From: Oscillospiraceae bacterium | GTDB taxonomy: Bacteria > Bacillota > Clostridia > Oscillospirales > Oscillospiraceae | Assembly: GCA_902765025.1 (NCBI GenBank) | Contig: CACWYC010000003.1 | Coordinates: 62,001-126,000 of the forward strand | DNA length: 64,000 nt | Direction of reading: 5' to 3' | Shown: in pieces, positions 8,760 to 32,551 of the stretch | How the letters are laid out: every line of letters begins with the position of its first letter | Position numbering within the stretch: the first letter of the stretch is position 1 | Translations under genes and position numbers: made by a program | Notes under the pieces: model-generated | Databases searched by the model: none | The model's input: only the letters and a program-made list of their open reading frames with translations | Told to the model about the DNA's origin: nothing

Positions 8760-11700
8760 ATGAACCTACCCATCGCGAAGAAAAAGGGCGGGCGTGAGCG
8801 CCGCCGCAGGTTGCTGTCTGCCGCCCTGATGGTGCTGCTCTCCGGCATCATGCTGGCCACGTCGTCCTATGCCTGGCTGGTGCTGTCCACAGCTCCCGAG
8901 GTCACCGGCATTTCCACCAGTGTCGGCGCCAACGGCAGCCTGGAGATCGCCCTCCTTACGGCTGAAACCCGCTCCGACCCGGATTCCATCCGCTCCAACA
9001 TCGGAGATTCCTCCGAGGTGCAGGGTGCTCTCATGGCCAATGTCACCTGGGGTAATCTGGTGGACCTCAGCGACGCCGGCTACGGTCTGGGCAACATCAC
9101 CCTGCAGCCCTCTCAGTTGATGGTCAGCGGCACATCCCAGTCCGGCTACACCGTGTCCAGCAATCTGCTGGCTCTGCCCAAGTACGGTTTTGACGGCCGC
9201 ATTACCGAGCTGGACGAGAACACCATGAGCGCCGTATACAGCGGCGGCAAGTTCCCCGTCACCGTGGAGCAGACCTTCGGCGTCCGCGGCATTGGTATTG
9301 TGGATGCCGCCTCCGCCGAGGCAAACGCCGTCGGCATGGCCAAGACCAATATCACCGCCTATGCCGGCAGCGCCCGCAACGCCGCTGTCAGCACCATCAA
9401 CAACTACGGCGCTGACCTGATTAACATCGTCTTCAAGCAGTACGCCCTCACCGGCTCTACCTTCGGCGACACCGACGTTAATGCGCTGAAGTCTACCATC
9501 AGCGGCCTGCAGAACTCCCTCACCTATGTGGAGACAGCCATGCGCTACGGCATCCTGGCCCATGTTGCCCAGGCCCAGCCCGGCGACTTTGACGCCGCCA
9601 GAAACATGGTGATGAACCGCAACAACGGCATCGCCGCCGTGTATGAAGCTTACGGCTCCTATTGCCCCGCCGAGATGGGCGAATGGATCCAGGCTCTCCA
9701 GGAGGACCAGAACAGCCTGAACTCCGTCTACAATGAATGCGGCCTGCTGTTCGGCGGCGTGTATACCTGGGATCAGATCCAGCCTCTGCTGACGCCCCTG
9801 ATGAGCACCAACGGCGTGTATATTGACAATCAGGCCCTGTCCGCACTGGATGCCGCCGATCTGATGAGCAAGAGCCAGATGACGCTGACGCTGCTGCCCG
9901 GCTCCGGCGTCATGGCCAATATTGCCAGCTTTGCCGGCAACTACAGCACCTGGATCAACTACGGCGCCTATCAGGTCAACTTCACTGTCCGCACAGACTT
10001 GGAGACCACCCGCCTGGCAGCGCTGGCTGCCTCTCTGGGCACCGTGGAGACGCCCTCCACTGCCAGCTCCGAGCTGTCCGGTGTGGGTGGCTACGCCGTC
10101 GACCTGGCGTTCCGCTGCAACGCCGCCCAGTCCGACCTGCTGCTGCAGATCGCTCCTGAGCAGCGCGTGTATACCGACTCTATCTCCGGCGATCTGCAGG
10201 GCGGCGGAAGCTACATGCAGTTCACCACGCCCGACAGCGCTTTCTCCGCCGGCCGCATGATTGAGCTGATGGACGCCATCCGCGTTACCTTCTTGGACGT
10301 AGAGGGCAACATCCTTGCCATGGCCAAGCTGAACACCAGCAATCGCACCCTGGAGGATGACGGCAGCATCAAGGCCAATCTCTACCTCTATGAATATGCA
10401 CTGGACAGCGACAGAAATGTGGTGCTGGGTCAGCGCCGCACCGGCGACGTCACCATCACTGCCCTGGAGCAGAATGTGGCCAAGGCCGTCACCGCTGTGG
10501 TGTGGCTGGACGGCAATCTGGTGGACAACACCATGGTGGCCGCCGAGACAAATGCCTCCCTCAACGGTACGCTGAACCTGCAGTTTGCCAGCAGCGCCGA
10601 TCTGATTCCCGCCGGCAACAATAATCTGTACAACAGCAATGCCTCCCGCACCCAGCTCACCACGCTGCTCAACGGTGAGAACGAGAGCTACGCCGATGTG
10701 ATCGATATCTATGATGCCGGCCAGGGCACTGCCTATACCGACGTCAGTTGGAACGCTTTCGCCTCCGCCTATGAGTACGCCATCCGCGTCAACGCCGACA
10801 CCGACTCCTCCAGCGGTCAGATTCGTGCCGCTTACAATGATCTGCGCAAGGCATATGATGGCCTCCAGGCCGTCACCCACACTGCCCTGCAGGAGAAGAT
10901 CACCCTGGTACGCAATCTGATGGGCGAGGTCAATGAGACTGGCGCTTACGTCAAGGACGGCGTGGCCTACACCAGCGAGTTCACCCAGGATCAGATCAGC
11001 GGTGCCACCACTGTCAACAAGGTGGACTATAACAATAACCTCCACGATGAGGGCAACGGCATCCAGACGCCTGTCTATACCCGGGAGAGCTGGGAAACCC
11101 TGGCCCTGGCCCTTTATAATGCCGAGGCTGTGGATAGCTACACCGGTGCCACCGATGCGCAGCTTAATGCCCAGATCACTGCCTTGGACGTGGCCTACAG
11201 TATGCTGGAGCGTGCAGTGTTCTATGAGGCTTACGACTATAATGGTGCCATCTATTACCGCGCTATCACCGATGTGGCCGATACGTACGGAAAATGGTAT
11301 GACGAGGACTTCCACCGTGTGATTTCCGACCTGACTATTCTGGATCTGGATACCGGGGCCTCCCGTGCCACCGTGGCCAAGATTTCCGCTTCCGAGTTTG
11401 TGCGCCGCGGCACCGTGACCACGCTGTCCCCCACGCTGGATATCGAAACCACTGCCTACAGCAGCTTCAAGAATGATGAGGTCATTGGTGTTCGCTGGGG
11501 CGTCAGCGGGCTGACGTTGCCTGATGTGAACCGTGACCATAACGCCAGCCTCACGGCCCTGATTGGTGCCGCGGAAGCCGCTGCGGCGGATGCCACCGCT
11601 TTGGACGAGACACTGGAGAATGCTGAGGAACTGGCCGGCCTGAAGGCGGAGGCTGCCGCCGTGCTGAACGGCACCTCCGATAAGACCTACGCCCAGGTGG

Positions 11701-21035: not shown

Positions 21036-24000
21036 ATGAAGAGAAAGAACGCAATGGGCAAGCGCATCGTTTCTGTGGTGCTGTCTTTTGTGATGATGTT
21101 TTCCACGGTGCAGTTGACCGCGGCCAATGCCCAACAGTCCGTCACCCTGGGGCAGCTTCTGGCGCAGAATTACGGCGCACAGCTTTCTGACCGGGCCAAA
21201 GCGCTGCTGACCTCTGGCTACCTGGCGGATGATGCGACCTATTCCTTCACTGCCCCCGACCCGGAGAACGCCGATGGGCTGATCACCGTTGACCCGGAGA
21301 ACAAAACAGTTGCCGCGAAACCGTACAGCGATGGAGAATACCGCTGGACGCCGGTATCTGCCTGCGTAATCGTTGATGGCGTAAGCAGGGAAGACATCGC
21401 CCTGACAGAGTCCGATAACGAATATATCGGCGCCTTTGCCTATTCCGGTGCATCCTTTGGCGTGGCGGTTTCCTATGCCCTTTACACAACCGTAGACATT
21501 GCTGTGCAGAACAAAATCCTTTCAGTTCCCTCTGCCCTGTGGGAACTGAAGGGCGACCTGTCTGATGCGGCGGGCAGCACGTCGACATTCGCCGGACTGC
21601 TGAATACGACAATCAAGTTTAGCCTCACCTCAATACAGGACGTGATGCAGAATAAGAATTTGAAGGATGTCAAGGTTTATAAAGCGCTGGCAAAGCTGAA
21701 TGCAGGTGATAAAACCGCGAACCCCGGCTCTGTGAAAGGCATCCCGCTGACAACCGGAAACACTTTGGCTGTCACGCTTGACCTGTCTGAGGAGGAACAG
21801 GCTCTGCTCAAAGGCTTGACCGACGACATGAGTGACACCAAGTTATCATTTGCCGCAACGATCGCTGGTTACCGTGATGGCGGGAACCTCAAAAACGTAG
21901 CCGGCCTCACCGGCAACCCCACCGCTATACAAACGGGGAACCAAGCGATTCTTAACCAGTCTGAGCTTGTGTACCGGGCGACGAAGGCTCTCGGCTCCTT
22001 TTCTGGCGGCAACCTCTATGGGACGGTCGTTACCGCCGCGATGCTGGGCATCACAAGCAGCTATGCCGCGCTTGCCAACTATGATTGGACCCGCGTTTCC
22101 GGCGCATTCCGAAACGATCTCACCTCCGCTGAAAGCGCGAATCTGGACAGCCTGGTGAATGCCTTGACGGCAGCAGATGCTGCGTATCCCGCCGCGCAAA
22201 CAGATCGCCTGCTGCTCAACTCCACCGTGGTGACTGCCACTGTTGCCCAGGCAACCGTTCGGGTGGAGCTCAAAGCCAGTGTCTATCCGCCAAATACACA
22301 GGTTCCCATCGCCCTTTCTGACACGGCAACCCTGTTTGCAGGCGCCGGCACCGGGCGGCAGCAACTGGAGGAGACACTTTCCCAGCAGGGGATTGAAACT
22401 GCTGCCATCGAACAATGGAACGATGGAACAGTATACAGCTTGGGCGTTGAGAACTACACCCGCACGGTAACGCTGCTGGACTCCGATGGGCAGCCATGCC
22501 AGGGACAGCTGGAGGCTGACCACACTTATATGCTTGCCATCAGCTATACCCCCAAAACACATCAAGTGACTGTCTCCGGCTGTGGCGATGACATCATCGG
22601 CGGCAGCTATGGTTACGGCTATGCTCTGATCCTGCCGGAAAAGCAGAACGATGCAGACCACGTTTATGACTATACGGTCAACGGACAGCCGTACGACCAG
22701 GGTGACACCGTGCGCGTTACGGAAGACACCAACATCACCCGCCGCGTGGGCAAGGCGTGGGAAAAGCTGACCTGGGGCCAGGTAGTGGCTGAGGCATATT
22801 TGCCCGATGATGCCGCTGCCGCCGCTATTTTGGCAAGCCCCGCCTTGGATACCGGCAACACCCGCCTCCGCAGGCCGTCCGCGCAGGAGGAGCTGTTCAG
22901 CCGCACTGTTTCAGGAGACACTGCCGCTTTCTATGCCCAGACGTATGCTGCCGATGAGACCTCCGCCAGACTATGGCAACCGTCCGTTCTCTCCGCCGCA
23001 TCCGCAGAAAATGTGAGCTTTACAAAGGACGGCGGAGTATATCGTGCTGCCCTGAACGGCTCTGATGATGCACGCTATGTGAAGTATTTGCTTCATCTGA
23101 GTTTCGAGGATATCTCCCAAACTGACGCACAGATGCTGGCGTCTTTGCCCTATACTCTTTCTGAGGAGGCAAAGCGTCAGAAGAGCGCCATGGATCAGTT
23201 GGCGGAGCAGGAGAGCAATCTGAAAAAGGTGGGAGAGCGCATCGGTGAAATACTCTCCGTTGTGAAGGGCGATGAGGATATCAGTGCCGAGTCCGTGGAT
23301 CTTATTGACGAAGTATATGACGAGTGTACCGGCATCTATGCATCTGGCGATACATATCTCTTCATCTATGAGTATGTTAAGACATACAACCAGCTCGCCA
23401 CCGCCGCGGAAAAGCTGGCCTATTACTATCGCAATTTTGACGCCATTTACGCCCAGGTGGATTTGCTCTATGAGAATCTGACCGGAGTTTTGGCTGATGA
23501 GGCAGTGCGCAAGCTGCTGCAAACCAACGATTTGACCTCTGAATACTATGACAGGCTTGACGAAGCGGTGGCGGAAGGTTCTGAAAGCAAGGCCGGCATG
23601 ACGGCGCCCCATTGGCGTATCCGGCGGGACAGCGATACGCTGACTGCGCTGGCGAACAGTATTCTCAACCTGAACGCCACACGGCAAATCACCGTGACGG
23701 AACCCCCTGTTCTCACGGCCTTGGTGGATGTGACAGCCGGTAACGTCTTGGCACTGGACTGCTCCGGTATCGCCGCATTCGGACGCTGCGGTGACGAACT
23801 GTACTGGACGCTGGATGAACTGGGCTGCCTGACCATTTTCGGAGAAGGGGATATGGCAGTTTACGCTTCCGCCGGTGGAGATTACGCACCGTGGCACGTC
23901 TTGGCAGACCGCGTACAAAGCGTATTCATCACCTCCGCCGCTGTGCCTGCCGTCAGTCAGGAAGCATTCCTGGGCGTCAATGCGCAGGTATATTATCCTG

Positions 24001-24278
24001 ACATGGCGGCGTGGAAAGAGGCGGACTTGGTTGGCCGGAATCTCGGCGGCAAGCTGACGTGGCAGACCTGCCGCGTTGGTAATCTGGACGCCCCCGGCAG
24101 CGATGTTGACGTGAGAGACATGGCGGCATTGTTTACCTATCTGTCTATGGGAACTATTGAGAGCACAGCGCTTCGCACGGCCCCCGCTCTGTTTGAAGAA
24201 TTGGCGGACGTAAACCGTGATGGCAGCGTGAATATTTTGGACTATCAGGTTCTATACCAGCAGATTCGTGGACAATGA
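21036..24278 (+). CDS. Large secreted protein with C-terminal type I dockerin
   Basis: 1080 aa. Signal peptide ~8-30 ending TAANA, with AAGGAGA upstream of the ATG. The long central part is alpha/beta with no recognised catalytic motif. Residues ~900-940 carry the cap motif C-G-x-x-L-Y-W-T-L seen in the BspA-like proteins of the window. The last ~65 residues are a type I dockerin: a degenerate first loop and a good second calcium loop, DVNRDGSVNILDY. Dockerins bind cohesins on scaffoldins or cell-surface proteins. No cohesin is encoded here, so the partner must lie elsewhere. It stands alone between its own promoter and terminator. Confidence 0.8.
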   Translation: MKRKNAMGKRIVSVVLSFVMMFSTVQLTAANAQQSVTLGQLLAQNYGAQLSDRAKALLTSGYLADDATYSFTAPDPENADGLITVDPENKTVAAKPYSDGEYRWTPVSACVIVDGVSREDIALTESDNEYIGAFAYSGASFGVAVSYALYTTVDIAVQNKILSVPSALWELKGDLSDAAGSTSTFAGLLNTTIKFSLTSIQDVMQNKNLKDVKVYKALAKLNAGDKTANPGSVKGIPLTTGNTLAVTLDLSEEEQALLKGLTDDMSDTKLSFAATIAGYRDGGNLKNVAGLTGNPTAIQTGNQAILNQSELVYRATKALGSFSGGNLYGTVVTAAMLGITSSYAALANYDWTRVSGAFRNDLTSAESANLDSLVNALTAADAAYPAAQTDRLLLNSTVVTATVAQATVRVELKASVYPPNTQVPIALSDTATLFAGAGTGRQQLEETLSQQGIETAAIEQWNDGTVYSLGVENYTRTVTLLDSDGQPCQGQLEADHTYMLAISYTPKTHQVTVSGCGDDIIGGSYGYGYALILPEKQNDADHVYDYTVNGQPYDQGDTVRVTEDTNITRRVGKAWEKLTWGQVVAEAYLPDDAAAAAILASPALDTGNTRLRRPSAQEELFSRTVSGDTAAFYAQTYAADETSARLWQPSVLSAASAENVSFTKDGGVYRAALNGSDDARYVKYLLHLSFEDISQTDAQMLASLPYTLSEEAKRQKSAMDQLAEQESNLKKVGERIGEILSVVKGDEDISAESVDLIDEVYDECTGIYASGDTYLFIYEYVKTYNQLATAAEKLAYYYRNFDAIYAQVDLLYENLTGVLADEAVRKLLQTNDLTSEYYDRLDEAVAEGSESKAGMTAPHWRIRRDSDTLTALANSILNLNATRQITVTEPPVLTALVDVTAGNVLALDCSGIAAFGRCGDELYWTLDELGCLTIFGEGDMAVYASAGGDYAPWHVLADRVQSVFITSAAVPAVSQEAFLGVNAQVYYPDMAAWKEADLVGRNLGGKLTWQTCRVGNLDAPGSDVDVRDMAALFTYLSMGTIESTALRTAPALFEELADVNRDGSVNILDYQVLYQQIRGQ

Positions 24279-24375: not shown

Positions 24376-24404
24376 TCGACACAGCAGGAATGTTGTGCTA
24401 TAAT
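24376..24404 (+). promoter_or_regulatory. Promoter of the second dockerin protein gene
   Basis: -35 TCGACA (24376-24381), 17-nt spacer, -10 TATAAT (24399-24404) with extended TGc just before it. The promoter overlaps the upstream ATG at 24390, showing that the true start is the ATG at 24456. Confidence 0.8.
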
Positions 24405-24455
24405 ATCAACTGTATAAATGTGGAGTGCTATACATCATGGGCAGGTGAGGCAGAA

Positions 24456-27356
24456 ATGAAGAGCAAGGGAATACTGGCGCTGACCTTGGCGTTGGTGTTG
24501 CTGTGTACGCAAATGCTGCCCGCCTTTGCAGAAGATCAGACGGACGAACCGGACGATGTCACGGACGTTTCTCACTTGCAAGAACTGGCGCCTCCCGCAG
24601 AGGAATCCACCCTCATCACCTTGGCGGAGACAGAATCCGAGATGCTTTCGTCAGCCGCTATGATGGCTGCAGCAGAGACCTTTACCCTCACCTTTTATGT
24701 GCCGGAGGGTGTTGCCGGGCTGTCTTATGCCAAGAACAGCAGAAGAGCAGCTAAGACTGTACTTACGATAACGGACGGCACATGCACCATTACCGGCCTC
24801 ACCGGAGCAGATAACCTGTACATTTTTCCCCAACTGGAGGAGGGGATCGCCTTTGGCAGCAATACAGCTGCCGCTGTGGATAGGGACAACGGCAAGGAGT
24901 TTTCGTTTAGCCCGTCCTATGGCTATATTTACATTAGCCATAATGCGCTTCACGCCAATATGCGTGTAGAGCTGGTAGTAGAGAATAACAGCCTGCATAC
25001 CCTGGAGAGTGCGCCTGCTTATACAGGCGTCAGTGCAGTCAAAACGCGGGATCAGTGGCCTTGGCAGGTGAAGGACGGCGCGCTGGTTCCCGGCAACACG
25101 GGAGCCAATAAGAGCCTGTCCATCCTGCTGGTAGATGTGGATACGGATGGCCTTTTCGCCTTTGAGTACCGCACCTCCACCGAGCCAACGGCCGACTGCC
25201 TGCTATATCATGTCAATGGTGAGCTTGCATTGGATTCTGTTACCTCTGCCGATAACTACGCTATGCGCTCCGACTTCAGTGGCCGCAGGAGCTGGTCCAC
25301 GGCCTATGTTCCCGTTTCAGCGGGCGATAGTGTCTGTCTGGCGTATTATAAAGACGTGAACGATACCGGCGCTGATGTGGGGGAGGATACCGTTTGGCTG
25401 CGGAATCTCCGGGTGGTCAGCGGCCCACAGTCTGTTGCCGTGTACGCCGATAGCCCGTCGTACGGCCTCGTATCCCCCGGCGGCAGCATTACCATATCGG
25501 ATAATTGGAAAGATGGCACCGTAAATGTAATGGAAACGGTTACCGTCACTGCCACACCGGCAGAGGGATACCTGTTCATGGGCTGGTCCCGACTGGTGGG
25601 CGACCGCTGGGCGTTGCATGACGCCAACGCTGAGACGTCATTTTACATCACCGGCGCGGATACCTATCGAGCCTTGTTCGCCCAGGAGGATTCCTTCGAG
25701 GCCAAGAATGACGGCGCTTACTATACGCACTTGGCTGATGCGCTTTCCGATGCTCAGCCCGGCGACCTTGTGGTGCTTCTGAAGGACGCCGCACTGTCCG
25801 AAAATGCCGAGGTGAAGTCCGGCGTAACCCTGCTGATCCCCTTTGACAGAGATAAAACGCTTTACACCATGAAACCTGAGGCGATTATGGCCTGGGAGAT
25901 GCCGTATCCCTACTGCACACTGACCCTGGCTGATGGGGTGACCCTTACCGTCAGTGGGGAATTGAGCCTCGGTTCCCGCATCAGTGCCTGCGGTCAGGAG
26001 GACGGCAGCCACAACGGCACACCTACCGGCCCTTATGGCGCCATTGTTACCGGGAATGATAGCCGGGTGCAGGTGGCGGACGGCGGCAGCCTGTATGCCT
26101 GGGGCTTTATCTCCGGTGCAGGCTGCGTTGAGGCATTTTCCGGCGCCAGAGTATTTGAGTGTTTTCAGCTCGGCGATTTCCGCGGCGGCAGCCGCTCCAT
26201 GGACGCCTTTGATGCTGGCAGCGTCCCCTTGATTCAATACTACGTGCAGAACATTGAGACGCCTCTTGTGATGCATGCCGGGGCAGGGGAGACCGTCTGT
26301 GGCGCCATTTCCGTCACCATGGACGGTGACACACAGCCCTCTGCCCAGTCTGCTTCCACGGTGCTGATTGGCCGGGGCGGCCTGTTTATCCCCGGTGAGG
26401 GTGGTACGGTGACCAAACGTTATGACGCTGCCCTTGACCGTATTATCTTTGATGCTGACGGCGATTTGACGTTTTCCTATATGGAACTGCGGCTTGCCGG
26501 CGTGGTGAAGGGAACCCAGGAGTATATTCTCCCGCTAGGCCCCAATTATTCCCTCCGTGTCCATAGCGGCACCACCACTGTGACCCAGAATACCCTGCTG
26601 CTCCCCGGTGCCGAAGTGACGGTGGATGCCGGTGCCACCTTGCTGGTGGCGGAGAATACCGACGTCTATGTGTCCCGCCGCGGTACGGCGCCCATCCCCA
26701 TCCGCCCGGTGAGTTATACCGTTGCCGGTCACGGCGCCCGTACGTGGGAGACCACCGGTGATGCCGTCCTCTCCGTCTCCGGCGTATTGGAGGTGCGGGG
26801 TGGGCTGTACGTCACATCTGACGGTTCCGGCAGCGCGAAATACGCCGTGATAAACGGAACGGACGGCGGCATGCTTCGTTTCACCTCTGTTTCTGTGAAT
26901 AAAACATACGCCAAATACAGCCCCAGCGGCAGCACCTCTGTCACACGGCCGGTGGTCAGCGCCGCCCGGGTGTTGGACACCGCCGCTGCTGCAGGCTGCC
27001 GGTTCTGTTGGTGCCTTGGCGCTTGGCGAAGTGCGGTTGAAAAAGACGACTTCTATGAGTTGGCCATTCCCGGCGAGGGCTATGTGACCCGTTGGGTCAG
27101 TGTGCCGTCCGGTGAAAAGCCTCCCACCCAGGTGGATTTGATTGCCGTAGGCAATGTCAACGGTGATGCCGCCCAGCAGGTGGATATCACCGACCTGGCC
27201 TGCCTCTTTGCCTATCTCTCCGCGGGAGAGAGGCAGGGCAATCTGCAAGCGGACCCTGCTTATTTTGACGCAGTGGCGGATGTGAATTCAGATGGCATGG
27301 TAAATATTTTGGATTACCAGGCCCTGTATCAGAGCTTTCTGCTGACCAGTCAATGA
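24456..27356 (+). CDS. Large secreted protein with C-terminal type I dockerin
   Basis: 966 aa from ATG 24456, preceded by GGTGAGG; an upstream ATG at 24390 falls inside the promoter. Signal peptide ~4-26 ends LPAFAED. The central region contains beta-rich segments, including a C-Y-x-x-P-x-x-G-x-V-x-P-G-G-type domain (~330-400) and beta-solenoid-like sequence (~430-850). The C-terminal ~65 residues are a type I dockerin: first loop NVNGDAAQQVDITD, second loop DVNSDGMVNILDY. The dockerin is closely similar to that of the upstream gene, so both proteins probably dock on the same cohesin. No catalytic site was recognised. Confidence 0.8.
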   Translation: MKSKGILALTLALVLLCTQMLPAFAEDQTDEPDDVTDVSHLQELAPPAEESTLITLAETESEMLSSAAMMAAAETFTLTFYVPEGVAGLSYAKNSRRAAKTVLTITDGTCTITGLTGADNLYIFPQLEEGIAFGSNTAAAVDRDNGKEFSFSPSYGYIYISHNALHANMRVELVVENNSLHTLESAPAYTGVSAVKTRDQWPWQVKDGALVPGNTGANKSLSILLVDVDTDGLFAFEYRTSTEPTADCLLYHVNGELALDSVTSADNYAMRSDFSGRRSWSTAYVPVSAGDSVCLAYYKDVNDTGADVGEDTVWLRNLRVVSGPQSVAVYADSPSYGLVSPGGSITISDNWKDGTVNVMETVTVTATPAEGYLFMGWSRLVGDRWALHDANAETSFYITGADTYRALFAQEDSFEAKNDGAYYTHLADALSDAQPGDLVVLLKDAALSENAEVKSGVTLLIPFDRDKTLYTMKPEAIMAWEMPYPYCTLTLADGVTLTVSGELSLGSRISACGQEDGSHNGTPTGPYGAIVTGNDSRVQVADGGSLYAWGFISGAGCVEAFSGARVFECFQLGDFRGGSRSMDAFDAGSVPLIQYYVQNIETPLVMHAGAGETVCGAISVTMDGDTQPSAQSASTVLIGRGGLFIPGEGGTVTKRYDAALDRIIFDADGDLTFSYMELRLAGVVKGTQEYILPLGPNYSLRVHSGTTTVTQNTLLLPGAEVTVDAGATLLVAENTDVYVSRRGTAPIPIRPVSYTVAGHGARTWETTGDAVLSVSGVLEVRGGLYVTSDGSGSAKYAVINGTDGGMLRFTSVSVNKTYAKYSPSGSTSVTRPVVSAARVLDTAAAAGCRFCWCLGAWRSAVEKDDFYELAIPGEGYVTRWVSVPSGEKPPTQVDLIAVGNVNGDAAQQVDITDLACLFAYLSAGERQGNLQADPAYFDAVADVNSDGMVNILDYQALYQSFLLTSQ

Positions 27357-27645: not shown

Positions 27646-30378
27646 ATGAAAACCAAGAAATTCCTGGCACTGGTGCTGGCACTGGTGATGGCATTTTCTC
27701 TGGTGGTACCTGCATCGGCCAGTGTGGAAGGGACAATCCCGGAACCGGACACATTGAAGCACGACGACACGAAAATACATGATACCGCTAAGATGACCGT
27801 CTACGTGACTAAAGGCGAAGAGACTCTTGTCGCTGCCGTAGGCGCTATTAATAGCCACATGGATGCCACGCTGGAGCTGAATTATGGCACGTATCCCGTT
27901 GACGGCACCATCACCGCTTATGGTCAGACCGAGGAAAAGGCCAACATGACCGAGTTTACGCTGAATGGTACCAGTAATACCGGCATTGATTTCACTACTA
28001 ATAGTAATGGTGAAGAAAACTATTTCCCTGGCTTGCTGGATCTTGTCGCCAATACGCCCTATTACATCCATTTTGTTGATGCAATGGATGCGACAGCGAC
28101 ACCTACTGATATTGGTATTTATACCTTCAAGAAGGCCACCGACGGTGAAGGCATAACTCTTACTGCGACGAATGATGTGGAGACCGAAGGTGAAGTAAAT
28201 TTGGTTGACCAGAGATGGCAGGCCCTCAAGGATAAAGCCTTTAAGGAGGACAGCAAAAACGACGGTGACAGCTATATCAGCCTGGCCGCCGGCTCCTACA
28301 TCGCCCTCAACACCGAGAAGCTGATTGCCGCCGGCACGTTGAAGCTGGATGACTTTAGAAATAGTGGTCGCGTTCAGGACAACATTGATAATGCCAAAAA
28401 GCAGCTGATGCTGACCACCGGCACCAACCTGGGCTACCAGATTCTGCTGAAGAAGGGTACCCGTTTCAAACTGGGCAATAGCTACGCCGACGTGAGGACG
28501 GATCTGCTGATCACCATGACTGGCAATGAAGCATTTAATGAAAACAACAATTATCTGAGAGACATCTACACTAACCTGACATCCAACGGAAAAGTCAACC
28601 TGGCCAAGAATATGCTGAACCTGTTCAGCTACATTGCCGGCAGTGTTCGGAGTGGGAGTCATGATGAACCCGTAGTCATCACCTTCGGCACGCCCACCTC
28701 TTCCTCTACCACCGTGGAAACCCAAGTTATCGATAATGAGAATGTGGCTGGCACCAAGGACGTGATCACCAAGAAGACTGAGATTACCACAACCACGAGT
28801 ACCGAGAACAATGTTGAGACCAGGACCGTTACCGAGACCGTCACCACCACGTCCTCTACTGTTACGCCGATTGGAGACGACAGTGAGACAAGTGCCTCAT
28901 ATTCCGTCCAGTTCGACAGGCAAATAGTCACGACCACTACAACCACTGTGGGTGACAATGAACCCGTACAGACTGTAGATTCGGGTGAAGCTGAAACCAG
29001 GACGAATACCGTTACGCTCAAGGCAGATCCTGCAGATGATACGCTCAACTTGAGCACGGCTAACACTTCTGCCAAAATTGCTGACGCCAACCTGGGTCAG
29101 CTCAAAGAGGATGCCAAGGCTACTATTGTGACTGAGGCCGTTACCCAGGCGCAGGGGAGTAGCAAAGATGTGACCGTGACCCTGGCCATCGTGGCCACGG
29201 CTTTGAATGCTGATGGTGGAACCACCAAGCGATATGATGTCAAGCCTGTTGTGACCACGCAGGTTGGCACCGGAGATCCCATCACTGCACCAGTCAGCAA
29301 CGCTGACCTGCAGGGCAGTTTCACTATTGAACTCCCGGTGCCTGCTAATATTGCCGGTAACGACGAATTAGTTAAAATAACGCACACGAGTGAAGGCCTC
29401 GATACTGAAGAATATACTGAAACTGTCGAGAATGGAAAGGTATCCGTTACGATTACCCACTTCAGCACCTTTGAACTGGCACCTGTGGAAGTCAGTCCAA
29501 GCATAAGCAAAGCTAAGGTTAACTTAAACCTGACACTGTCCGATGCCATAAGGATTAATTTCATTGTCCATAGTCTTACTGAAGAAGCGAGTAATTATTC
29601 CGTGAAATACTGGTTTAAGGACGACAGTGAAGAGACGGTGACGTACCTTAGTGACTTGGTTCCCAATAATGAAGGTAAGTATAAGATCGTGGCTGCCTCC
29701 TGCGCGGCCAAAGAGATGACCGACACGGTACATTTTGAACTGTGGTGCAGCAATGAGCAACTTTGCTCCTTTGACTATTCCATTCAGAATTACTGCAATA
29801 CGATAATTGGAAGTAGTAGTGACGCTGAATTGGTTAATCTGTGCAAGGCAGTACTGGACTACGGCTCCAGAGCGCAGAAATATTTCAGTTATAAAGAAAA
29901 CTCGTTAGCCAATGGTGGTAGCTATTACTTCACCCCCACCTTTGCTGATGAAGATAATCCGGTTATTACTGAATATAATGCTGCTGGCACTACGGTAAAG
30001 GCCAATTTGACATTGGAGTCTGAAACCGAGTTGAACCTCACGCTGGGCGGAACGGAAGATACACTTAGTATCACATCTGTCAAAGATGTTAATGCGGATA
30101 ATTATCTTAGTAAAGATTCTCTGGCAAACGGTACTGCGTATTACACGGTAGACTATAATAGTGCCAAAGCTACCTGCACTGTGAAGGTGAAGGGCATTCC
30201 CGCCAAATACCTCAATCATGTCTATGAGGTCAATTTCACGTATAATGGTGAACCGGGAACTATTCAATGCTCCCCGATGAACTATGCATACGCTTGCCGG
30301 ACAAGGACAGATGGCCTGGGTTATCTCTGCAAGGCGCTGTATCAGTACTGGAAAATCGCAAATACATATTTCAGTTAA
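27646..30378 (+). CDS. Secreted surface protein, Thr-rich with C-terminal beta domain
   Basis: 910 aa from ATG 27646 (RBS TGGAGGAA); an upstream in-frame ATG at 27559 would put 29 unlikely residues before the signal. Signal peptide ~5-24 ends PASASVEG. The N-terminal half (~30-350) is mixed alpha/beta. A Thr/Val-rich segment (~370-470) has long runs such as TTTTTTVG, likely extended or glycosylated. The C-terminal ~290 residues contain two beta-rich blocks with the motif N-L-x-L-S-D-A-I-x-I-N-F and an Asn/Tyr-rich helical part, a domain pattern I recall from other Clostridia surface proteins but cannot name. No anchor is visible. The 42-codon peptide gene starts 29 nt downstream. Confidence 0.75.
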   Translation: MKTKKFLALVLALVMAFSLVVPASASVEGTIPEPDTLKHDDTKIHDTAKMTVYVTKGEETLVAAVGAINSHMDATLELNYGTYPVDGTITAYGQTEEKANMTEFTLNGTSNTGIDFTTNSNGEENYFPGLLDLVANTPYYIHFVDAMDATATPTDIGIYTFKKATDGEGITLTATNDVETEGEVNLVDQRWQALKDKAFKEDSKNDGDSYISLAAGSYIALNTEKLIAAGTLKLDDFRNSGRVQDNIDNAKKQLMLTTGTNLGYQILLKKGTRFKLGNSYADVRTDLLITMTGNEAFNENNNYLRDIYTNLTSNGKVNLAKNMLNLFSYIAGSVRSGSHDEPVVITFGTPTSSSTTVETQVIDNENVAGTKDVITKKTEITTTTSTENNVETRTVTETVTTTSSTVTPIGDDSETSASYSVQFDRQIVTTTTTTVGDNEPVQTVDSGEAETRTNTVTLKADPADDTLNLSTANTSAKIADANLGQLKEDAKATIVTEAVTQAQGSSKDVTVTLAIVATALNADGGTTKRYDVKPVVTTQVGTGDPITAPVSNADLQGSFTIELPVPANIAGNDELVKITHTSEGLDTEEYTETVENGKVSVTITHFSTFELAPVEVSPSISKAKVNLNLTLSDAIRINFIVHSLTEEASNYSVKYWFKDDSEETVTYLSDLVPNNEGKYKIVAASCAAKEMTDTVHFELWCSNEQLCSFDYSIQNYCNTIIGSSSDAELVNLCKAVLDYGSRAQKYFSYKENSLANGGSYYFTPTFADEDNPVITEYNAAGTTVKANLTLESETELNLTLGGTEDTLSITSVKDVNADNYLSKDSLANGTAYYTVDYNSAKATCTVKVKGIPAKYLNHVYEVNFTYNGEPGTIQCSPMNYAYACRTRTDGLGYLCKALYQYWKIANTYFS

Positions 30379-30407
30379 TTGATGATTTACGGAAGGAAGT
30401 GGATTAA

Positions 30408-30536
30408 ATGAAGAAATTTGAAGAGTCTGTCATTGAGATCGTTCGCCTCAATGCAGATGATATCATCTGCACCAGTGGCTGCGAAGGTAAGGATAATCAG
30501 GCAAGTGACACAGAGAGTATCTGCCTCGTAGAGTAA
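30408..30536 (+). CDS. 42-aa RiPP-precursor-like peptide
   Basis: ATG 30408 to TAA 30536, with a strong RBS (GGAAGGAAGTGG, 30391-30402). The N-terminal half reads MKKFEESVIEIVRLNADDII, a charged amphipathic leader of the kind seen in many small Clostridia peptides (K-K-x-E-x-P/S-x-I-E-[VI]-V). The second half is Cys/Ser/Thr/Gly-rich with Cys at 21, 25 and 39 (C-T-S-G-C, then I-C-L-V-E at the end). A radical SAM/SPASM gene follows after a strong hairpin. Small size, leader/core split and maturase next door support a ribosomally made, modified peptide. The modification and role are unknown; it has no signal peptide or export gene beside it. Confidence 0.65.
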   Translation: MKKFEESVIEIVRLNADDIICTSGCEGKDNQASDTESICLVE

Positions 30537-30562
30537 TAACTGCAAAACGCGGTAAATATGAA

Positions 30563-30602
30563 AAAGCAGGGGCAAGCAGCCTTCGTCGCTTGCCCCTGCT
30601 TT
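30563..30602 (+). terminator. Attenuator-like hairpin between peptide and maturase genes
   Basis: Perfect 15-bp stem AAAGCAGGGGCAAGC/GCTTGCCCCTGCTTT (30563-30577, 30588-30602) with a 10-nt loop, followed by CCCC rather than a T-run. It probably causes partial termination or protects the upstream mRNA, giving more peptide than enzyme. Confidence 0.7.
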
Positions 30603-30622
30603 CCCCAGAGAAGGAAATGAAC

Positions 30623-31963
30623 ATGATTGAGATACTTGCGCCCATCGACTCTGTCGCCAAATTGTGCGGCCCCCAGAAGGATACGTCAATCTTGCCGTAT
30701 CGACTCAGTCACCATTGTGTGAAGGCAGACTGCCCCGACGGCACGCTGCTCTACCATACGCTTACCGGCGCCGTCTATCTCCTTCCGACAGGTGAATCCA
30801 TAGAGATGGCCCGGGACGCCCTCATCGAGAAATGGCTTTTGGTGCCACAGGACTTTGATGAAAACACCTACGCAGATCAGCTGCGCCACGTCGCCTCCCT
30901 GATTAAGCCGACAGCGAAGCACAAGCATCACTTCACCATCCTTACTACCACCGACTGTAACGCCCGTTGCCGTTATTGTTACGAGATGGGCAGGCAGCGT
31001 ATCCCCATGTCTGTGGAGACGGCAAACGCCGCCGCTCAATATATATGTCGGCAAAGCGGGGGCGATCGCCCGCTGAATCTGTTCTGGTTTGGCGGTGAGC
31101 CGCTGTATAACATGCCGGCCATCGACACCATTACCGGTCACCTGCGTAACTGCGGCGTTACCTTCCGCTCCACCATGACCTCCAATGGGTTCTATCTCAC
31201 CCCGGATGTGGTGAAAAAAGCCGTGGAGAATTGGGCCTTGGCCGGGGTACAGATTACCGTTGACGGCACAGAAAAGATATATAACCGGGTCAAGGCATAT
31301 ATTGACGATTGTGATAATCCCTTCGCCCGTGTTATGGACAACATTACGGCGGCTCTTGCCGCCGGCATCCAGGTCACCATTCGCCTGAATATGGATCGAC
31401 AAAACGCCGAGGATATTTCCTTGGTGATTGACCAGATTTGTACCCGTTTTCAGGGACAGAAAAAGTGCAATGTTTACGTCGCGCTTTTAAAGTCCTATAA
31501 GGCTAAAATCAACGAATTCAATACGGAGCAGGAGATGTTGGATTGCTTCTTCCGCCTCCGGGATAAGATAAAGAACTACGGTATGCTCCGCACTGTTCCG
31601 CTGAAGCGGGAAATCGTGTTGAACCGCTGCAAAGCGGATAATGACGCCTGCGAAATCATTCTGCCGGACGGTCAGCTGGAGCGATGCCACCACTATACCG
31701 AGGGGGAACAATATGGCGACATTTTCCACTCGGATCGTGACTGGCAGCGTGTTAATGCTTGGAAGGAGATCCAAAAGGACTATCCCACCTGCGCAACCTG
31801 TGCCATGTACCCTATCTGCTTGAACCTGAAAAAATGCGACTGGAACAAGGACGGCTGTACACAGAGCAGCAGGGTGATTTGGCTGCGGGAATTACAGGAA
31901 CAGATGCGCATTCATTACGAAAGTTGGGCCGAGGGGATCCGGGAAAAGCAAGGGGGGGAATGA
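30623..31963 (+). CDS. Radical SAM/SPASM peptide maturase
   Basis: 446 aa from ATG 30623, 7 nt after GAAGGA; ATGs at 30590 and 30617 have poor spacing. An N-terminal ~105-residue region with L-Y-H-T-L-T-G-A-V resembles the peptide-binding part of other maturases. The radical SAM motif C-N-A-R-C-R-Y-C lies at residues 112-119, followed by FWFGGEPL. The C-terminal SPASM region has Cys-rich motifs (C-E-I-I-L-P-D-G-x-x-x-x-C, then CATCAMYPIC and CDWNKDGC) for two extra Fe-S clusters. Such enzymes install thioether, C-C or other crosslinks in RiPPs. The upstream 42-aa peptide is the obvious substrate; the reaction type cannot be predicted here. Confidence 0.85.
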   Translation: MIEILAPIDSVAKLCGPQKDTSILPYRLSHHCVKADCPDGTLLYHTLTGAVYLLPTGESIEMARDALIEKWLLVPQDFDENTYADQLRHVASLIKPTAKHKHHFTILTTTDCNARCRYCYEMGRQRIPMSVETANAAAQYICRQSGGDRPLNLFWFGGEPLYNMPAIDTITGHLRNCGVTFRSTMTSNGFYLTPDVVKKAVENWALAGVQITVDGTEKIYNRVKAYIDDCDNPFARVMDNITAALAAGIQVTIRLNMDRQNAEDISLVIDQICTRFQGQKKCNVYVALLKSYKAKINEFNTEQEMLDCFFRLRDKIKNYGMLRTVPLKREIVLNRCKADNDACEIILPDGQLERCHHYTEGEQYGDIFHSDRDWQRVNAWKEIQKDYPTCATCAMYPICLNLKKCDWNKDGCTQSSRVIWLRELQEQMRIHYESWAEGIREKQGGE

Positions 31964-31966
31964 AGA

Positions 31967-32551
31967 ATGAAAAAACTGTACTCACTCGTGCTGATACTTG
32001 CACTGCTACTTGTGCTTCCGGCCTGCGGTGCCGGAAAGAGGACGGCATCCGCCACGCCGGACAGTGAGTCGTCTGCCGTTCCCGCCACACAAAAGACGGA
32101 TACTTTTGCGGGCACATCCGAGTCGGAGCCGGCCACTGAGGACTTGTCTGACGGCGAACTGCCCTCCATTGAGTTGACGATGCCTGATAATGGTGATAAT
32201 GCCGGCCAGACGACATCACCTGTGCAGTCAGCGCCATCCATTCCGACTGTACCCATTGATCAACCCAAACCCTATGCACCTTCCTCCGGCAATCAGGGAT
32301 CACAGGGGCCAACTACCACACCGCACACCCATGTAGTGGTGAAAGATGATGCTGTGGAGCCCACCTGCCAGCGAAATGGATTAACTGAGGGCAGCCATTG
32401 CTCTGCCTGCGGCGCAGTGTTGGTGTCCCAGCAGATCATCCCTGCCGTTGACCATAGTTATGCTTCGGGCCAATGCATTTGGTGCGGAGAAAAGGACCCT
32501 GCTGAACAGGACAACGGTGAGATTGAATTACCTGAAATCCCATTGTTCTGA
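31967..32551 (+). CDS. Lipoprotein with Cys-rich C-terminal domain
   Basis: 194 aa. It starts 3 nt after the radical SAM stop, so the two are surely co-transcribed. A lipobox LVLPAC at ~16-21 gives lipid anchoring. Residues ~25-115 are a Ser/Thr/Pro/Glu-rich linker. The C-terminal ~70 residues have H-x-H-V-V-V, C-x-x-x-G-L-T-E-G-x-H-C-S-x-C-G and C-I-W-C-G-E, a pattern common as a small repeat in Clostridia surface proteins (four or five Cys that may bind zinc or form disulfides). It may act in export, display or immunity for the peptide product; this is a guess from position. Confidence 0.75.
   Translation: MKKLYSLVLILALLLVLPACGAGKRTASATPDSESSAVPATQKTDTFAGTSESEPATEDLSDGELPSIELTMPDNGDNAGQTTSPVQSAPSIPTVPIDQPKPYAPSSGNQGSQGPTTTPHTHVVVKDDAVEPTCQRNGLTEGSHCSACGAVLVSQQIIPAVDHSYASGQCIWCGEKDPAEQDNGEIELPEIPLF

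Follow-up and report, generated by a model that had tools for sequence, protein, structure and literature searches.

We found that a 42-residue cysteine-bearing peptide and the radical SAM/SPASM enzyme encoded downstream of it are well supported as a substrate-maturase pair making cysteine-based crosslinks, because cysteine in the peptide core tracks radical SAM enzymes and because the two genes co-occur in a conserved manner. The pair is probably of RiPP type with thioether formation as its chemistry, and a sactipeptide or ranthipeptide is a plausible product class, given that the closest solved structure is that of the thioether-forming enzyme CteB. The cassette was read from the forward strand of the window (the whole stretch of 64,000 nucleotides analysed) at 30408-32551 as peptide, strong hairpin, enzyme and lipoprotein (Table 1). 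A sequence-only reading of this DNA had described the 42-codon gene with its ribosome-binding site (AGGAAG, 8 nt upstream) and cysteines (residues 21, 25 and 39), the hairpin after it, the C-x3-C-x2-C motif and SPASM cysteines of the enzyme, and the lipoprotein starting 3 nt past the enzyme's end; all of these were found in place, with seven invariant cysteines in the SPASM region. It had omitted the large leader family, the lasso-type leader and the cassette's first gene, which encodes a giant secreted protein and lies 30 nt 5' of the peptide gene. The spacing, ribosome-binding sites and common strand suggest that giant protein, peptide, enzyme and lipoprotein form one operon.

Table 1 Features of the cassette, in window positions
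Feature	Position	Strand	Basis
Giant secreted protein, about 910 aa, signal peptide MKTKKFLALVLALVMAFSLVVPASA	27646..30378	+	ORF
C-terminal module of giant protein, two beta-sandwich + helix repeats	29503..30375	+	Iterative search, predicted secondary structure (pLDDT 70)
Shine-Dalgarno AGGAAG of peptide gene, 8 nt upstream	30394..30399	+	Sequence
Precursor peptide gene, 42 aa, MKKFEESVIEIVRLNADDIICTSGCEGKDNQASDTESICLVE	30408..30536	+	ORF, relatives
Putative leader, residues 1-23, lasso-type: aromatic at -20, Thr at -2	30408..30476	+	Alignment; predicted cleavage site
Putative core, residues 24-42, with Cys25 and Cys39	30477..30533	+	Cys/enzyme association
Strong hairpin in peptide-enzyme spacer, no clear T-run	30563..30602	+	Folding
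Radical SAM/SPASM maturase, 446 aa, CNARCRYC and C336, C355, C390, C393, C399, C405, C412	30623..31963	+	
Lipoprotein, 194 aa, Pro/Ser/Thr-rich, lipobox LPAC, C-terminal tail ELPEIPLF	31967..32551	+	

The enzyme or a relative was found in eight of 300 genomes of the same family, the window's own included, and in seven of 394 genomes of the order (an overlapping sample scanned at a stricter cut-off), five of them new; a search for related loci returned two named records, each of them an Oscillospiraceae MAG. The relatives' cassette, in other members of the Oscillospiraceae and Oscillospirales, consists of a giant secreted protein, peptide, hairpin and enzyme. Reading the DNA upstream of the enzyme revealed peptides of the same build in four genomes, MKYYEEPKLSVVMFNANDIICTSGCGNLEENGLVEDCLADGCNSDGN (G080), MKKFELPVMTVVAFEADDIICTSGCATFCPEYGTDSILEPIDG (G125), MKKKFFEPEANIVILSENDVIVTSGCPVIPGQTAPDEF (G236) and MKKTFKDPEVKVIRVDENDVICTSGCGYGEHDNELSVDMLP (G339, a different family). 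G174 and G555 have peptides of this build too, and G650, G621 and L004 have looser versions. Leaving aside the looser cases, six or more genomes other than the window's have a peptide immediately 5' of the enzyme. Ahead of the enzyme relatives in G123, G109 and G295 we recognised no such peptide; in G109 and G405 the contig starts just ahead of the enzyme. A PqqD-like protein comes after the enzyme in G236, G123, G174 and G650. Over the first 25 codons of the peptide, pS/pN was 0.79/0.25 against L013 and 0.39/0.26 against L019, which indicates that the leader is under purifying selection. With relatives ahead of the enzyme in four or more other genomes and a higher rate of synonymous than of replacement change, these comparisons indicate that the window peptide is not a chance ORF. 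The lack of conservation that the sequence-only reading had named as counting against its proposal was thus not found, and the co-occurrence it had suggested looking for in other Clostridia was, as other genomes of the Oscillospiraceae and Oscillospirales show the peptide directly ahead of the enzyme.

That reading had proposed a RiPP maturation cassette whose lipoprotein may display, export or protect against the product. The substrate-maturase pair is supported by the conserved co-occurrence and the cysteine-to-enzyme association, and the lipoprotein's role received no specific support: the only homologue seen is in G125 (L013), a close relative. G080 has a different membrane-anchored protein in that place, and no curated family scored above cut-off against the lipoprotein. 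The lipoprotein carries a cysteine-rich module, CxxxGLTEGSHCSxCGxVL...CxWCGE (window 32330-32500), common to the L013 homologue and possibly metal binding.

The peptides linked to the enzyme form only a minor part of a much larger leader family. A peptide HMM was built from five sequences and then a leader-only HMM from 26; the latter matched in 82 of 394 genomes of the order (E 0.002), and 98 distinct family peptides were gathered. Their leader has the 23-residue consensus MKxYExPExEVxxFxxEDVITTS; the core after it is variable and 8-44 residues long. The sequence-only reading had not recognised the peptide's family, and indeed none of the NCBIfam and Pfam models tried recognises it; a literature search for the leader motif strings found no paper. 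The family appears to be large, widespread and unannotated in gut-type Clostridia, and apparently undescribed, and the 23-residue signature offers a clear handle on it. The window genome itself holds a second, cysteine-less member on contig C12 (L050 9582-9737, minus strand) with its own 1544-aa secreted protein.

Cysteine occurs in 16 of the 98 cores. A radical SAM gene was present in the fetched locus for 12 of these 16, as opposed to none of the 82 cysteine-less cores (Fisher: P = 2e-12, counting related species as independent and with fetched loci varying from about 3 to 19 kb). An earlier count per genome, limited to the window-type enzyme, gave cysteine cores for 12 of 15 peptides in enzyme-bearing genomes vs 4 of 83 elsewhere (P = 9e-10), and these four apparent exceptions (one in G271, two in G567 and one in G607) each adjoin a radical SAM/SPASM enzyme of a second kind, only distantly related to that of the window. 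The cysteine cores without a local enzyme were three in G174 and one in G123, and both genomes encode a window-type enzyme elsewhere. It should be noted that the first five seed peptides were mostly cysteine peptides; the leader-only model holds no residue past the first of the core, so the association was not built into the search. The second radical SAM/SPASM family, seen on the minus strand at L066 7795-9291, L161 1841-3253 and L123 3-1043, is partnered in G271, G567 and G607 mostly by cores of the type GGCLTWSNQNGVACHYGL, and the two of its enzymes tested matched no NCBIfam model at cut-off. The association provides a testable pairing rule for unassigned radical SAM maturases and their substrates, in which a core cysteine goes with a radical SAM enzyme.

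The enzyme-tracking cysteine lies in the core, which in the window holds Cys25 (core position 2) and Cys39. Cys21 falls at leader position -3 and is also present in L024, whose core has no cysteine; the leader cleavage site thus probably splits the C-T-S-G-C stretch. The sequence-only reading had taken this stretch, with a third cysteine near the end, as one core: the residues are present as described, and their unity as a core is what is doubtful.

Residues C112, C116 and C119 of the enzyme and its seven C-terminal cysteines are invariant in 13 relatives. By sequence its closest solved structures are CteB (5wgg/5why) and TigE (8vpo), and by fold CteB comes first, followed by SkfB, TigE and SuiB. 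Only the generic Pfam domains Radical_SAM and Fer4_12 scored above cut-off. The best NCBIfam match, the radical SAM/SPASM RiPP maturase model TIGR04463, covers most of the enzyme at 127.5 bits against a cut-off of 525, and the SCIFF and Clo7bot maturase models gave 56 of 425 and 83 of 600 bits; membership of all three was rejected, and by these scores the cassette fits no curated maturase family. The pair resembles CteA/CteB (SCIFF, ranthipeptides) in its radical SAM and SPASM domains, small cysteine precursor and probable N-terminal RRE, and differs in its SCIFF score and in that the window peptide is not a six-cysteine one. The RRE is probable from a model: residues 26-92 are predicted to form three strands and then helices (a weak model, pLDDT 62, from three sequences), and a strand-then-helix order is that of the RRE fold (PMC8326336). 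Profile comparison of the N-terminus with PqqD gave no match, and a search of the region against solved structures found nothing.

The spacer between peptide and enzyme has a folding energy of -36.5 kcal/mol (z -5.4). Hairpins that differ in sequence were observed in the same place in five of the six loci tested (window, L019, L013, L014 and L099; z -3.4 to -6.7), and since the place is kept while the letters have changed, a function for the hairpin is favoured. Its effect would most likely be unequal output of precursor and enzyme. An intrinsic terminator was considered and rejected for the window hairpin, which has no good T-run and was not called by the terminator scan; an Rfam search gave no match.

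Equivalents of the giant protein lie 5' of the peptide in L019, L013 (C-terminal part), L014, L099 and L050, and a giant secreted protein precedes the peptide in G080, G125, G236 and G339, that of G125 being represented by its C-terminal part at a contig end. Across the family, 85 of 98 peptides are preceded, at no more than 700 nt, by a large same-strand ORF (≥ 200 codons); for 60 of these the distance is 0-60 nt, and the median gap is 24 nt. The C-terminal module of the window's giant protein is common to 31 of the family's upstream proteins. No Pfam or NCBIfam family scored above cut-off against the giant protein, and a fold search with the module returned only immunoglobulin-like matches at a TM of about 0.2, which are not informative. 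Two more giant secreted proteins, with C-terminal dockerin type I domains, are encoded ahead of the cassette (window 21036-24278 and 24390-27356).

In several loci the secreted protein after the peptide ends in residues resembling the peptide's core; the core-resembling protein lies before the peptide instead in L102 and, within L050, in the case of the second peptide. Examples of tail and core are EGDNGTGWG in both (L169), FEENMTDKG/LPDNMTEKG (L057), IELPIIPV/IELPIITV (L102) and GDIELPEQP/GDILLPEVP (L064). Among 32 pairs, five of them added by hand and some probably involving spurious ORFs, own pairs scored above permuted pairs (p = 1.5e-4). The window lipoprotein's tail is of the common kind, and it was rejected as a mirror of the window core (rank 14 of 32), so the tail-core link is only a lead for the window. 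A surface-associated role of the product appears more likely to us than that of a classical bacteriocin. In G080 a cassette of HPr-kinase-like, PqqD, S26 and ABC genes (L090 5468-8628, contig C12) lies within an apparent exopolysaccharide gene cluster, which hints at a cell-surface link.

In many loci the peptide is followed by genes for an HPr-kinase-like protein, PqqD (PF05402), an S26-signal-peptidase-like protein, an ABC transporter and an NTP_transf_5 nucleotidyltransferase. In the window genome PqqD was observed alone (G000:C3:7122-7418) and the HPr-kinase-like and S26-like genes together on contig C1, so processing of the window peptide in trans is possible; no transporter was found adjoining the window operon or the C1 genes. 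Under the preferred reading of a cysteine-crosslinked RiPP, the precursor would consist of a 23-residue lasso-type leader and a cysteine-bearing core, and the leader would be bound by the enzyme's own N-terminal RRE-like domain, perhaps helped by the separate PqqD. We infer that the enzyme would form a thioether between a second residue and a core cysteine, Cys25 and/or Cys39 being the likeliest, with the hairpin holding enzyme output below precursor output. The peptide would then be cut after the TS by the S26-like peptidase encoded elsewhere, or by another protease, and the product would be exported and would function at the cell surface alongside the lipoprotein and the giant secreted protein.

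The accessory genes and the leader recall phosphorylated lasso peptides, whose pathways include a kinase, nucleotidyltransferase, PqqD and transporter and whose leaders bear the motif YxxPxL (-17 to -12) and a Thr at -2 (PMC8498205, PMC10368454). In the present family YxxPx(hydrophobic), with Tyr or Phe first, occurs in 77 of 98 leaders, at -20 in 74 of these, and Thr at -2 in 63 of 98; the window leader has the Thr and reads FxxSxI. The paeninodin, pseudomycoidin and bsf pathways thus share with this family the YxxPxL-like motif, Thr at -2, HPr-kinase-like protein, nucleotidyltransferase, PqqD and ABC transporter, whereas here the motif lies three residues further from the cleavage site, an S26-like peptidase takes the place of a B2 protease, no cyclase was seen in the clusters and a radical SAM enzyme is present in a subset. 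That the peptide is a true lasso precursor which the radical SAM enzyme only tailors is accordingly very improbable: the lasso protease B2 (PF13471) was not above cut-off in any of the 14 genomes tested, the fetched clusters showed no cyclase gene of the Asn-synthase type (most of the 14 genomes do contain Asn_synthase genes), and the window core GCEGKDNQASD has Gly1 followed by N, Q and A at positions 7-9, with no Asp or Glu there, the combination of Gly1 and an acid at 7-9 occurring in 27 of 98 members. Lasso peptide membership was rejected on the missing B2 protease and the core pattern. With no lasso protease in 14 genomes and no cyclase in the clusters, these comparisons indicate a leader that works like a lasso leader in a pathway that is not a lasso one, suggesting that lasso-type leader recognition is shared with a non-lasso pathway. 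The SynChlorMet cassette (ScmC to ScmF) likewise combines HPr-kinase-like and radical SAM/SPASM proteins (ScmC, ScmE and ScmF in NCBIfam), and differs in its precursor, peptidase and transporter set; ScmC is the best NCBIfam match of the HPr-kinase-like protein at 30 of 125 bits, far below cut-off.

Radical SAM/SPASM enzymes of this general kind perform several chemistries, SuiB and TigE are among the structural matches and Trp is present in some cores, so the enzyme might make another bond in the peptide (a carbon-carbon or ether cyclophane, or an epimerisation), with cysteine serving only for metal or redox purposes. We consider this unlikely, as it is cysteine that goes together with the enzyme, the window core lacks Trp, Tyr and Phe, and CteB is the closest solved relative. 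Somewhat less unlikely is that the peptide is a small surface tag or ligand of the giant protein, which the enzyme merely strengthens, rather than a small-molecule precursor. The usual position of the peptide gene, about 20 nt after a large ORF, the many members without a modifying enzyme nearby and the tail-core resemblance are consistent with this, but a leader/core split and a cassette of PqqD, peptidase and ABC genes are what exported RiPPs typically have, and the window's tail and core do not match. Slightly more credit, though still tentative, is due to a broader reading in which a lasso-type leader, uncoupled from cyclisation, is a general Oscillospirales tag for small surface-associated peptides, at least two radical SAM families have been recruited for cysteine cores, and modified peptides and matching secreted-protein tails are ligands of the giant proteins. 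If true, this would concern cell-surface architecture rather than an antibiotic.

Two loci carry further leader-like sequences. In L050, the cysteine-less paralogue with its secreted protein is followed by a protein with a membrane anchor and by another leader-like peptide, the second in this locus (8814-8996). At L036 1324-1596 (minus strand) a leader-like start, MKQYTKPTMMVLSLSANDMLCSGC, is fused to a dockerin/EF-hand-like calcium-binding stretch, DANDDGRLTWGDF.
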